From positions 1 through 64,000 of the forward strand of contig NZ_JBGUAX010000012.1 in the NCBI RefSeq assembly GCF_041821065.1: DNA of 64,000 bases, given 5' to 3'. Shown piece by piece: positions 35,910-40,715 of this stretch (the first letter of the stretch is position 1; every line of letters starts with the position of its first letter). The notes under the pieces are model-generated. The model saw only the letters and a list, made by a program, of their open reading frames with translations. It did no database searches and was not told the origin of the DNA. Position numbers and translations under genes: made by a program. The stretch is from Egicoccus sp. AB-alg2 (GTDB taxonomy: Bacteria; Actinomycetota; Nitriliruptoria; Nitriliruptorales; Nitriliruptoraceae).

Positions 35910-36371
35910 TCAGTGCGCGTGGCGCCAGCCGGGTCCGGCGATGGCGGCGATCACCGTGTCGTCGTCGGCGCGCTGGTCGATGAAGACGTCGGCGCCCAGC
36001 TCGAAGACCGCTTCGAATCCATCCGTGCCGCGCGCGGCGACCACCAGGCGGACGAGCGGATGGGCGCGGTGCAGCCACGGCACGAGGTCGAGCAGGGTGG
36101 CCGTGTCCCCCTCGTCCGGGGCCACGACGACGACCGTGGTCCCCTCGGGCAGCACCGGCGGCGATCCATCACCGACGGCGGCCGAGCTGACGCGGTAGCC
36201 GCACTGCCGGGCCAGCCGGTGCAGACGACTCGTGAACGGCGACGCGGAGCCGACGATCGCGACGGCCGGCCGGCGACCGGCCTCGACGGCGGCCGCGGCG
36301 CCCGGACCGGTCCCCGGCGTCGTCCCTCGCCGGCCACGGAGGGGGCCGCGGTGACGGAAGCGAAGGTGCAT
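35910..36371 (-). CDS. Receiver-like (flavodoxin-fold) protein, unknown
   Basis: 153 residues. After a basic N-terminus there is a Rossmann/CheY-like alternation: PAVAIVGSASPFTSRLHRLA, TTVVVVAPDEGDTATLLDL, VRLVVAARGTDGFEAVFELGADVFIDQ. It resembles a response-regulator receiver without an obvious phospho-acceptor Asp at the end of strand 3 (the position reads VVVVAPDEGD). ATG 36371 is preceded by GGGAGG. It lies 45 bp after the GreA-like gene and may share its transcript. Confidence 0.5.
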   Translation of the reverse strand: MHLRFRHRGPLRGRRGTTPGTGPGAAAAVEAGRRPAVAIVGSASPFTSRLHRLARQCGYRVSSAAVGDGSPPVLPEGTTVVVVAPDEGDTATLLDLVPWLHRAHPLVRLVVAARGTDGFEAVFELGADVFIDQRADDDTVIAAIAGPGWRHAH

Positions 36372-36416
36372 GACGGACCTCCCGCCCGCGTCGGACACGA
36401 CGCGGACAGCTGCCGC

Positions 36417-36869
36417 TCAGTCCAGGCGCGAACGGCCGACGATGACGCAGCGGTACGACCCGGCCGGCGAGACCACGGTCACCTCGTCGCCGGGACGGTG
36501 CCCGAGGACGGCCTGCGCCAGCGGCGAGTCGAACGAGGTGCGATGGTCGTCCATCGGCGCTTCGACCGGATGCACGACGAGGAACGACTCCCGGCTGCCG
36601 TCGTCGAACTCGACCTCGACCTCGTCGCCGAGCTCGATGACCGAGGGGTCCTCGGCGACGTCACCCGGCGAGACCGCGACGCGCAGCAGCTGGCGCAGCT
36701 CCTCGACCTGGGCCTCGGCGTGTCGGCAATCCTCGAGCAGCGCGTCGCTGCGCTCGCTGGCCAGGTCGGCGTTGAGCCGCGCGAGCCGTTGCTCGGCCCG
36801 CTCCAGGCGGCCCTCCACCCACCGACGGCCGGCGGCGGTCAGGATCGGCGACGTCGTGTTGGTCACCAT
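36417..36869 (-). CDS. GreA/GreB-family transcription elongation factor-like protein
   Basis: 150 residues, close to the GreA length of about 158. The N-terminal half is a predicted coiled coil (RLERAEQRLARLNADLASE). The C-terminal half is an FKBP-like GreA domain with VIELGDEVEVEFDDGSRESF, SFDSPLAQAVLGHRPGDEV and VTVVSPAGSYR. GreA factors stimulate RNA cleavage by stalled polymerase. The tip acidic pair cannot be assigned with confidence, so it could be a regulatory paralogue. ATG 36869 has GAGGA in front. The palindrome at 36928-36946 lies just upstream. Confidence 0.8.
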   Translation of the reverse strand: MVTNTTSPILTAAGRRWVEGRLERAEQRLARLNADLASERSDALLEDCRHAEAQVEELRQLLRVAVSPGDVAEDPSVIELGDEVEVEFDDGSRESFLVVHPVEAPMDDHRTSFDSPLAQAVLGHRPGDEVTVVSPAGSYRCVIVGRSRLD

Positions 36870-36927
36870 GGCGTCCTCGGCGGCGAATCGTCTCGGCACG
36901 TCCCGCCCCCCGCTCGTCGGGACGCGC

Positions 36928-36946
36928 CGTGAAGCAGAGCTTCACG
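36928..36946. promoter_or_regulatory. Operator-like palindrome, copy 1 (upstream of greA-like gene)
   Basis: CGTGAAGC and its exact complement GCTTCACG surround a 3-bp centre (AGA). It is 59 bp before the greA-like start and 8 bp after the regulator stop. The same element recurs at 39567-39585 and I find it nowhere else in the window. Confidence 0.6.
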
Positions 36947-36954
36947 ATACAGCA

Positions 36955-38160
36955 TCACCGTGAACTCGCGGGCCCCACCTGCCAGAGCACCTCGGTCGGT
37001 TCGGCCCCGGGATTGCGCCAGCCCGAGACGCTCGCCTCCGTCGCCACCAGCGCGTCGCCCTCGTGCAGCGTCTCCGTGCGTCCGCCCACCGTGACGTCGA
37101 GCACGCCGCGCACGACGGTGGCCACCTCGGGGCCCTTGACGGCGAAGGGCGCGCGGTCGCCGGCGGCACCCGCGGCGACCTCGAGGTGCCACACCTCGCC
37201 GACCCGTGTGTCCGCGACCACGCGCTCGCCGACGAGGCCGTCCTGGAGGCGGCTGCGGTCGCGTCCGCTTCGACGGGCGACGACGTAGCCGGCGGGCGCG
37301 TCCGCCTCGGGTCCGAACGGGACGCCGAGCACCTCCCACAGCCGTACCAGGGTGTCACCGGAGGGCCCCCGGACCCCGCGTTCGACCTGGGACAGGGCGG
37401 ACGGGCTGATGCCGACCCGGCGCGCCACCTCCGCCTGCGACAGGCCGTGGCGGAGCCGCTGGTCACGCAGGACCGTGCCCAGCTTCTCCCGGGCGCTGAC
37501 CGGTGCATCCGTCGCGACCAGGTCGCCGTCGACGACGTGCGCGCGAACGCTGCGCCCGACCACCCCGGCGCGGCGGCCGTCGGCCTTGCGCACGGTGAGA
37601 CGCAGGTCGCCGTCCTCCTCCTGGTCGACCTCGACGACGACCTGCGTGATCTCCTGCAGCCGTCGCAGGAAGGAGGGCCGGTGGCGCTCGCGCTCCACCG
37701 GCCACAGCGCGAGGCTGCGCCGGCGGTACAGCCGCGGGCACGCGGCCAGGAACAGGTCGAGTCCCCGGCCGCGGCCCCACGCGTCCTCGACGGCCGTCAG
37801 CCGGTCGAAGACGAACGCCGCGCCGGCGCCGACCCGCTCGTCCGCGGCCCGGAGCGAGGTCAGGGCGTCGTCGAAGCTGGCACCGGGCGTCAGCGCGTCC
37901 GGTACCGGTGAGGTCCGGCCGGTGACGACCGGTGACCAATCCAGGACGGCCGCCGTGACCGGTACACGCGCGTCCCAGGGCCGGCCGACGTTCACGACGA
38001 CCAGCGGGGTGGTGTCACCGACGGCCGCGGTGAACCGGTCGACCAGCAGGTCGAGCGGCGGCGAGCCGGCGCCCAGCAGGACGAGGTTGTCGCCGATGCG
38101 CACGTCGTCCACGAGCTCGTCCAGCAGCGCCGTCCCGCTCGTCGGTCCCTGCACCGTCAT
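36955..38160 (-). CDS. Transcriptional regulator: KaiC-like domain, XRE HTH, cupin
   Basis: 401 residues in three parts. Residues 1 to about 200 look like a RecA/KaiC-fold domain with a degenerate P-loop (RIGDNLVLLGAGSPPLDLL, no GK[ST]) and a Walker B-like FVFDRLTAVED. Residues 227-280 are an XRE-type helix-turn-helix (LRHGLSQAEVARRVGISPSALSQVERG). Residues 300-401 are a cupin ligand barrel (GPEVATVVRGVLDVTVGGRT). XRE-cupin proteins usually control amino acid or alcohol metabolism through a small-molecule ligand; the extra KaiC-like part is unusual. It follows gdh by 37 bp on the same strand, and paired palindromes flank the operon. ATG 38160 chosen, with AGGTGGG before it. Confidence 0.75.
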   Translation of the reverse strand: MTVQGPTSGTALLDELVDDVRIGDNLVLLGAGSPPLDLLVDRFTAAVGDTTPLVVVNVGRPWDARVPVTAAVLDWSPVVTGRTSPVPDALTPGASFDDALTSLRAADERVGAGAAFVFDRLTAVEDAWGRGRGLDLFLAACPRLYRRRSLALWPVERERHRPSFLRRLQEITQVVVEVDQEEDGDLRLTVRKADGRRAGVVGRSVRAHVVDGDLVATDAPVSAREKLGTVLRDQRLRHGLSQAEVARRVGISPSALSQVERGVRGPSGDTLVRLWEVLGVPFGPEADAPAGYVVARRSGRDRSRLQDGLVGERVVADTRVGEVWHLEVAAGAAGDRAPFAVKGPEVATVVRGVLDVTVGGRTETLHEGDALVATEASVSGWRNPGAEPTEVLWQVGPASSR

Positions 38161-38197
38161 CACCCACCTGGCCCGGGGTGCGCACGCTAGGCGAGGC

Positions 38198-39454
38198 TCA
38201 GGACGCCAACGCCTCCTCGACGACGCCGGCGCGCTCGGCAAGGGCGGCGGCGATGCGTCCCACGCCCAGCACCGCCGCCGCGGCACGCAGCGGCAGGCGG
38301 CGCGACTCCGACACCCGCCACAGGTCGTCGAGCGCGGCGCTCATCCGCTCGTCCAGGCGGCGTGCCACCTCGGCGGCGCTCCACTGCTCGCCGCCCAGGT
38401 TCTGTTGCCATTCGAAGCAGGACACCGTCACGCCTCCGGCGCTGGCCAGCACGTCGGGGACCACGGTGACGCCCCGTTCCTGCAGCACCGCGTCGGCCTC
38501 GGGGGTGCACGGGCCGTTGGCGGCCTCGGCGACCAGCCGTGCGCGTACGCGCTCGGCGAGGCGGGCGTCGATCGCGCCCTCGAGCGCCGCCGGGACCAGC
38601 ACGTCGCAGTCGACGGTCAGCACCTCCTCGGGGCCGATCTCCGTGGCGCCGTGGGCGACGACCGAACCGCTGCGGGCCTTGGCCGCGGCGACGGCCGCGA
38701 CGTCCAGCCCGTCCGGGTCGTGGATGGCGCCGCCGCTGTCCGACACGGCCACGACCCGCAGGCCGTCGGCCGCCAGCAACCGGGCGAGGTGCGCGCCGGC
38801 ATTGCCGAAGCCCTGGATCGCGACCCGGGCGTCCGCCGGCAGACCGAGACGGTGGGCGCTCGCGAGCACGACGGTGCGGCAGCCGGCCGCCGTCGCGGTG
38901 TCGCGGCCGAGCGACCCGCCCGCGGCGAGCGACTTGCCGGTGACGACCGCGGGTGCGGGTGCGCCGGTCACGCGCGCGTACTCGTCGGCGATCCAGTCCA
39001 TGTGCCGCGTGTCGGTGTTGACGTCCGGCGCCGGCACGTCCACGTCGGGGCCGATGCTTCCGGCGATGGCCCGGGTGTAGCTGCGGGTCAACGACTCCAG
39101 CTCGCGTTCGCTCAGCCGCTTGGGATCGACCGTGATGCCGCCCTTCCCGCCTCCCAGCGGCAGGTCGACGACCGCGGTCTTGACGCTCATCAGCGTCGCC
39201 AGGCCGGCGACCTCTTCGGCGGTCACGTCGGGGTGGAAGCGCGTGCCGCCCTTGGCGGGGCCCCGTGCGGTCGAGTGCGCGATGCGGTAGCCGGGCACGA
39301 CGCGCATCTCGCCGTCGTCACCGACGTAGGGCACCTGGACGGCGATGGCGCGCTCGGGGCGGTGCAGCAGCGCCCGCATCCAGTCGTCCAGCCGCAGCTC
39401 GTCCGCCGCGGCGTCGATGGTGGCCAGGGCCTGCTGGTGCAGGTCGAGGGTCAC
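38198..39454 (-). CDS. Glu/Leu/Phe/Val-type amino acid dehydrogenase (probable glutamate dehydrogenase)
   Basis: 418 residues, the usual size for NAD-type GluDH. The substrate-binding core [14 protein letters not shown] precedes [14 protein letters not shown], which holds the catalytic Lys. The Rossmann motif is [17 protein letters not shown], followed by [14 protein letters not shown] and [11 protein letters not shown]. It interconverts glutamate with 2-oxoglutarate and ammonia. GTG 39454 is set by GAGGAAGGA upstream. It is the first gene of an operon with the KaiC-like/XRE/cupin regulator. Confidence 0.92.
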
Positions 39455-39558
39455 GTGGAGTCCTTCCTCGTCGGGGACCCGCACGCGACCAGGCACGACG
39501 GCATGCGTCGACCGGCCCCGCACGGGGGAGGTGCCGACGCGCCGTTGCGTCACCGGGA

Positions 39559-39564
39559 AGGGTA
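39559..39564 (-). promoter_or_regulatory. Possible -10 (TACCCT) of the gdh operon
   Basis: A TAnnnT hexamer on the minus strand immediately downstream of the palindrome at 39567-39585. A regulator bound there would cover the spacer and -35 region. Confidence 0.3.
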
Positions 39565-39566
39565 GA

Positions 39567-39585
39567 CGTGAAGCACGGCTTCATG
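39567..39585. promoter_or_regulatory. Operator-like palindrome, copy 2 (gdh/flavin oxidoreductase intergenic region)
   Basis: CGTGAAGC and GCTTCATG surround a 3-bp centre (ACG). It differs from copy 1 only in the centre and one outer base. It is 113 bp before gdh and 135 bp before the divergent LLM oxidoreductase. Confidence 0.6.
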
Positions 39586-39719
39586 CCGCCGTTCGCCGCG
39601 TCGTCCCGGCAGGCGCACGTGGCGGCGGCACGCGTCCGGACCCGCGGCGGGAATGCCCCGGGCGCGGTCGACCGTTGTGCCTGGTCGCCCCTGGACCCGC
39701 ACGAGACGAGAGACCGCCG

Positions 39720-40715
39720 GTGACGTCGCTCCCCCTGTCGATCCTGGACCTGGCCGAGATCGGCCCGGAAGAGACCGCCGGCGACGCCCTTGCCGGGGCG
39801 GTCGACGTCGCCCGCCGCGCCGAAGGGCTCGGCTTCCGGCGGGTCTGGTACGCCGAGCACCACAACATGCCCACCATCGCGTCGGCGGCCACCAGCGTCC
39901 TGATCGCGCACGTCGCGGCCCACACCCGCACGATCCGCGTCGGGGCCGGCGGCATCATGCTGCCCAACCACTCGCCGCTGACCATCGCCGAGCAGTTCGG
40001 CACCCTGGCCTCGCTGCACCCCGGCCGGATCGACCTCGGGCTCGGGCGTGCGCCGGGTGGCGACCAGGCCACGTTCCGGGCGCTGCGCCGCGACCTCGCG
40101 GCGGCCGACCGCTTTCCAGAGGACGTGCTGGAACTGCAGGGTTACCTGTCCGAGACCTCCCGGATCCCCGGCGTCGAGGCGATCCCCGGACGGGGCACCG
40201 AGTTGCCGCTCTACATCCTCGGCTCGTCACTGTTCGGGGCGCAGCTGGCCGCCGTGCTGGGCCTGCCCTACGCGTTCGCGTCGCACTTCGCGCCACAGGC
40301 GCTCGAGCAGGCGGTCGCGCTCTACCGTCGCGAGTTCCGGCCCTCCGAGCAGCTGCGCGAGCCCTACGTCATCGCCGGCATGAACGTCATCGCGGCGGAC
40401 ACCGACGAGGAGGCCCAGGCCCACCTGCTCGCGGCGCGCCGGCGCCGGGCGAAGCTGCTGCTCGGACGCGGGCGTCGGCTGTCCCCCAAGGAGCTGGACG
40501 CGCTGCTGGCCTCGCCCGCCGGTCAACAGGTGGAGGTCATGCTGCGCCACACGGCGGTGGGCACGGCAGCGGACGTCGCCGAGCAGTTGACGGCCTTCGC
40601 GAGTCACGCACGTGCCGACGAGCTGATCCTCGCCGCCGCCGGCCCCGACCGGCAGGCCAAGCTGCGGGCGCTGGATCTGGTCGCGCAGGCGCACGGACTC
40701 CCCGCCGCCGCCTGA
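39720..40715 (+). CDS. LLM class flavin-dependent oxidoreductase
   Basis: 331-residue luciferase-like TIM-barrel monooxygenase. Signatures are [64 protein letters not shown] and the C-terminal [15 protein letters not shown]. It uses FMN or a related flavin; the substrate is unknown. The GTG start has only a weak ribosome site. It is divergent from gdh. Confidence 0.9.

Follow-up and report, generated by a model that had tools for sequence, protein, structure and literature searches.

In Pseudomonas, the XRE-cupin regulators PsdR, PauR and ErfA are presented, in the parts of PMC7901475 on which we draw, as local repressors that act at palindromic sites in core promoters, and regulators of this type are assigned mostly one or two targets located beside their own gene. 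A second relevant group is formed by the iKaiC domains, which the parts of PMC5847659 used here describe as inactivated KaiC-like signaling domains (for example, DUF835 and MEDS) in archaeal response regulators. In the literature that we surveyed, mainly as titles and abstract openings, we recognized no regulator that combines a KaiC domain with a cupin.

Here we analyze a stretch of 64,000 nucleotides from Egicoccus sp. AB-alg2 (class Nitriliruptoria, phylum Actinomycetota), referred to below as the window, which contains the gene for a variant of the known XRE-cupin regulator type. Our overall reading, to which we assign a probability of about 0.62, is that the encoded protein is an XRE-cupin regulator that acts locally, probably as a repressor, on a glutamate dehydrogenase gene (gdh) and a neighboring greA-like gene, and that it carries an inactivated KaiC domain.

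A three-domain regulator and its genomic neighbors

The regulator gene, its domains, and its two partner genes are laid out in the window as follows:

36955..38160, minus strand: three-domain regulator gene (ATG at 38160, stop at 36955-36957, 401 amino acids)
37516..38160, minus strand: KaiC/RecA-like domain without the Walker A Lys/Thr, residues 1-215 (profiles, fold search, alignments)
37315..37470, minus strand: XRE helix-turn-helix (HTH_3), residues 231-282 (Pfam, E 1.7e-15)
36982..37134, minus strand: Cupin_2, residues 343-393 (Pfam, E 4.2e-8)
38198..39454, minus strand: glutamate dehydrogenase gene gdh (ELFV_dehydrog, Pfam; GTG start set from an alignment of relatives)
36417..36899, minus strand: greA-like gene, the downstream partner with its own candidate operator (GreA_GreB C-terminal domain)

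The three-part architecture put forward in the original prediction is real: an open reading frame on the minus strand encodes a KaiC-like domain together with HTH_3 and Cupin_2. The HTH_3 match reaches 57.2 bits against a Pfam cut-off of 23, and that of the cupin, which lies C-terminal to the XRE helix-turn-helix (HTH), reaches 33.2 bits against a cut-off of 27.2; residues 1-215 have no Pfam match. The closest named relative of the regulator comes from a Nitriliruptorales MAG (70% identity over residues 6-395), and because relatives in the class are full-length at 58-70% identity, the open reading frame is not a chance one. Among 66 genomes of the class, 36 gave a match, of which three (G005, G020, G029) have the HTH-cupin part only, so that 33 are counted as carrying the regulator including its N-terminal domain. 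At the level of the phylum (396 genomes), the N-terminal domain has 35 carriers by the class profile or 37 by a wide profile. The same three parts occur in members outside the class (L096, L098, L099, L101, L102); in L099 and L101 the cupin match does not reach its cut-off.

The gdh gene directly precedes the regulator, as had been noted, on the same strand and with its end 37 bp before the regulator ATG, and is likely the first gene of a gdh-regulator operon. All 22 close gdh orthologs in the class (67-100% identity) adjoin the regulator, in the order gdh then regulator in 21 cases and regulator then gdh in the remaining one (G015); the distant GDHs of the class, at no more than 53% identity, are not found beside it. 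That the regulator always neighbors gdh thus holds for 22 of the 33 regulator-bearing class genomes, but it fails for distant members, which adjoin other genes. An ELFV dehydrogenase is the neighbor of the distant regulators L099, L100, L167 and L168, amiS plus formamidase of L101, L159 and L160, formamidase with no amiS detected of L158 and L163, COX1 of L096, L097 and L169, and an ABC transporter of L102. In three loci from different lineages (L098, L105, L162), a NiFe hydrogenase large-subunit gene lies divergent from the regulator.

In most class loci, the regulator is followed by the greA-like gene. Pfam recognizes only the GreA C-terminal domain in its product, leaving the N-terminal part without a match, and the protein also has a below-cut-off match to the NCBIfam nucleoside diphosphate kinase regulator. 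Where the window has a GreA-like protein, a DksA/TraR zinc-finger gene adjoins the regulators L100, L102, L168, L169, L170 and L171; GreA and DksA/TraR proteins both act via the secondary channel of RNA polymerase. At L161, L165 and L166, none of these types of neighbor is present.

The palindrome TGAAGC-N3-GCTTCA and its predicted role

Four short elements in the two promoter regions are considered below:

39569..39583, no strand assigned: candidate operator 1, TGAAGC-N3-GCTTCA, within the gdh promoter and shortly before the predicted -10
36930..36944, no strand assigned: candidate operator 2, TGAAGC-N3-GCTTCA, before the greA-like gene
39559..39564, minus strand: predicted gdh -10 hexamer TACCCT (TATGCT in relatives), from alignment
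39536..39551, minus strand: second conserved element, GACGCAACGGCGCGTC, after the gdh -10 and near the expected transcription start

The palindrome is specific for the regulator locus. Exactly two copies occur in the window, with none in 100 shuffles, and exactly two in the entire 4.84-Mb genome, one at the gdh promoter and one before the greA-like gene. Of the 40 exact copies in the 66 class genomes, the regulator locus accounts for 30, with 12 on the gdh side and 18 on the greA side; a reversed control pattern has 36 copies in these genomes, as summed over the control column, and they are scattered. Of 18 gdh upstream regions, 11 contain the palindrome exactly and four others contain it with one mismatch (L108, L179, L181, L185). 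When arms were permuted over 30 class loci, 27 exact sites were counted for TGAAGC and the mean over 180 arms including TGAAGC was 0.15, which means that no other permuted arm gave any site. Exact copies are missing at some class regulator loci, for example those of G018, G019, G013, G015 and G052.

Outside the class, the palindrome with no more than one mismatch is seen at three of ten regulator loci of family f41, before amiS (L101, L159) or a hydrogenase gene (L162); permuted arms average 0.09 sites here, and two of 180 arms, TGAAGC among them, reach three. In 146 whole f41 genomes, exact copies are mostly background, and one lies at a regulator locus. The regulator promoters of f27, f70, f15, f44 and g16 have no palindrome with one mismatch or fewer, and the recognition helices differ in some of these members; the single match at L096 falls inside the COX1 gene. 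We therefore rejected the palindrome as a feature of the phylum as a whole.

The position of the palindrome relative to promoter elements bears on how it might be used. In the gdh upstream alignment, it is followed within a few bases by a TATGCT-like -10, and the gdh promoter combines this good -10 with no clear -35. At the greA-like promoter, the first T of the palindrome is the last base of the predicted TAnnnT -10. Since the window fits the pattern of the Pseudomonas XRE-cupins closely, we propose repression of both transcription units: the HTH of the regulator would bind the palindrome at two promoters, that of the gdh-regulator operon and that of the adjacent greA-like gene, and would shut off both by covering the core promoter. 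Repression of the gdh-regulator operon by its own product would mean that the regulator also controls itself. A small metabolite bound to the cupin, the KaiC-like domain, or both would release or modulate the protein.

The opposite sign of regulation, with the same protein and sites, appears unlikely to us. Here, the HTH would recruit RNA polymerase, as that of lambda cI does, at least at amiS-formamidase, and at gdh would do so from within the spacer. Activation is possible in f41 in that the palindrome of L101 and L159 lies just upstream of the -35 (6-7 bp from TTGACC or TTGACA), and the lack of a clear -35 at gdh points in the same direction. However, the greA-like site overlaps both the -10 and the expected start, and the gdh site nearly abuts its -10, each of which is a position suited to occlusion; moreover, the Pseudomonas XRE-cupins repress.

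We also considered whether the palindrome belongs to some other, unlinked transcription factor, such that the three-domain protein merely shares the locus, and regard this as improbable. Of the ten copies away from the locus, three directly precede detached greA-like genes (L186, L201 and L202, in genomes G003, G049 and G050), and one of these genomes, G050, has no detected regulator and has the palindrome before its greA-like gene. The other seven exact copies, which lie away from both the locus and greA-like genes, have no explained neighbor, and the six that were read (all except the second G022 copy) have no tested partner gene nearby; these copies and G050 are what an unlinked factor would account for. 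Against it, 35 of the 40 exact copies fall in the 33 regulator-bearing class genomes, and the palindrome stays with the regulator where the neighbors are amiS or hydrogenase. At those f41 loci the presumed target genes differ, and what the loci have in common with the window is the regulator, an argument in favor of the regulator as the reader of the palindrome.

A second conserved element, GACGCAACGGCGCGTC, accompanies the palindrome upstream of gdh. Its GACGC-N6-GCGTC pattern is found in 16 of the 18 gdh upstream regions, with a central AACGGC in nearly every case; in the other two, the core is kept and the outer pair is changed (GGCGC...GCGCC in L032). This element could act as a second protein site or form a hairpin in the 5' mRNA. 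Rfam gave no match up to E 1 over positions 36000-40500 of the window, and a simple fold of the gdh leader does not favor the hairpin.

If the local repressor reading is correct, the 15-bp palindrome with its two genomic copies would provide a concrete target for a regulator family built on an ATPase fold without a P-loop. It would also join gdh and a GreA-like polymerase factor in a predicted two-promoter regulon that is readable from sequence.

The KaiC-like N-terminal domain and the cupin

The RecA/KaiC-like nature of the N-terminal domain, suggested in the original prediction, is supported by profile comparison and by a model of modest quality. A narrow profile built from the class only matched KaiC weakly (probability 43%) and found no KaiC match in a further profile search, which left the question unsettled; it was settled by a wider profile, A7, made from 27 N-terminal domains of the phylum. 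In hhalign, A7 matches a set of 11 true KaiC domains from the class with E 1.3e-9 and a probability of 96% over 175 columns, and the top matches in a PDB profile search are KaiC (E 0.0024), SSO2452 (E 0.0057) and PH0284 (E 0.09). An AlphaFold2 model built on two sequences, of low to modest confidence (pLDDT 59.8, pTM 0.59), has KaiC 7s67_A as its best PDB match in Foldseek (E 2.2e-6), where most of the matches listed belong to the KaiC family, and in VIA-align it matches Elp456 (Z 10.9), KaiC (10.6), PH0321 (10.5) and FlaH (10.2). With this modest model, the fold check thus pointed to a RecA/KaiC relationship rather than to an unrelated fold. The Pfam profile of the KaiC family ATPases (PF06745) does not match the N-terminal domain of the window regulator, and one f41 member matches it below the cut-off (E 0.0084). 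Similarity to MEDS (PF14417) is weak, and we set it aside as the parent family, as the profile comparison covers only 26 columns (E 0.003); one of the 27 N-terminal domains matches MEDS below the cut-off (E 0.0083), and the MEDS and KaiC profiles match each other (E 1.5e-6).

Alignment to the KaiC profile sets Walker A at GDNLVLLGAGS (residues 23-33) and Walker B at FVFDRLT (residues 116-122), the places where both had been proposed. GAGSPPLD of the regulator aligns over the Walker A sequence GSAGSGKT of true KaiC domains, and GxxxxGK[ST] is absent, with L36 at the K position and D37 at the T position. The missing P-loop Lys, already remarked on for this protein, proves to be a family-wide loss: no Lys occurs at this position in three overlapping alignments of 29, 27 and 18 rows (the residue lists give the eight commonest per position, and the printed alignments cover the remainder for two of the three), nor does any alignment show a conserved Gly-rich loop there. 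The Walker B Asp (D119) is present in all 29 class rows (A1) and in 26 of the 27 wide rows (A7); the catalytic Glu pair of KaiC is not conserved. Six residues (D24, N25, V27, C141, P142, Q173) are invariant in all rows of the three alignments. We dropped H160 as a universal residue, as it is found in only 14 of 18 rows, although it is kept in most. Judged from these alignments, the N-terminal domain is KaiC-like and not an ordinary ATPase, the ATP-binding loop having been lost across the family. That it still binds nucleotide in the manner of KaiC and couples energy status to transcription, as the fold and the retained Walker B Asp might suggest, is very improbable given the absence of both Lys and Gly-rich loop at the Walker A place and the unconserved Glu pair, and we rejected this reading of the P-loop region. 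Possible roles for the domain are to form oligomers or to bind a second signal; the original prediction had suggested that it may sense nucleotides or a partner without hydrolysis.

In the cupin, the F339-x2-K342-x2-E345 stretch of the first motif is invariant in 29 rows, and no His, which would be expected as metal ligand, is among the commonest residues at 378-382; His metal ligands are a feature of metal-binding cupin motifs. With no metal His of the usual kind and with this invariant Phe-x2-Lys-x2-Glu, the cupin could plausibly take a ligand of carboxylate type.

The same P-loop-less KaiC-like domain also begins proteins of approximately 860-890 residues in families f9, f19 and f26 (L088-L095); L088, the one of these that was tested, contains a PPDK_N domain. 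Regulators and a PPDK_N-containing protein thus share a domain for which Pfam has no model. It is conceivable, though we hold this as a doubtful proposal, that it constitutes a sensor-domain family of its own, which arose from KaiC as the P-loop was lost and the GDN-V ... CP ... Q signature became fixed, and which is common to Actinomycetota XRE-cupin regulators and PPDK_N-containing proteins, and that an oligomer could loop together the two operators, which lie approximately 2.6-2.8 kb apart and flank gdh and the regulator. If so, the looped operators would switch ammonia assimilation as one unit with an RNA polymerase factor of the secondary-channel type.

Comparison with known systems

GdhR of Neisseria gonorrhoeae is reportedly a dedicated, GntR-type regulator associated with gdhA; both it and the window regulator are gdh-associated, but GdhR is not known to have a KaiC-like domain or cupin. 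KaiC, FlaH, the RadA-type ATPases and the Elp4-5-6 subcomplex have the same fold as the N-terminal domain, which differs from them in lacking Walker A and in being fused to a DNA-binding part. The regulator resembles the iKaiC proteins, as far as they are described in the source used here, in retaining a KaiC fold, in the loss of ATPase motifs, and in fusion to signaling modules; unlike them, it is bacterial and fused to XRE and cupin domains, and its match to the MEDS profile is weak. A parallel in overall design is seen with PsdR, PauR and ErfA as portrayed in the account on which we draw: all join an XRE HTH to a cupin, and the few targets adjoining the regulator gene and the palindromic core-promoter sites of the Pseudomonas regulators have counterparts at our locus that are predicted from sequence. 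The window regulator departs from these three in its approximately 215 additional N-terminal residues of KaiC fold, in its different candidate operator, and in its predicted targets, gdh and a Gre-type factor.
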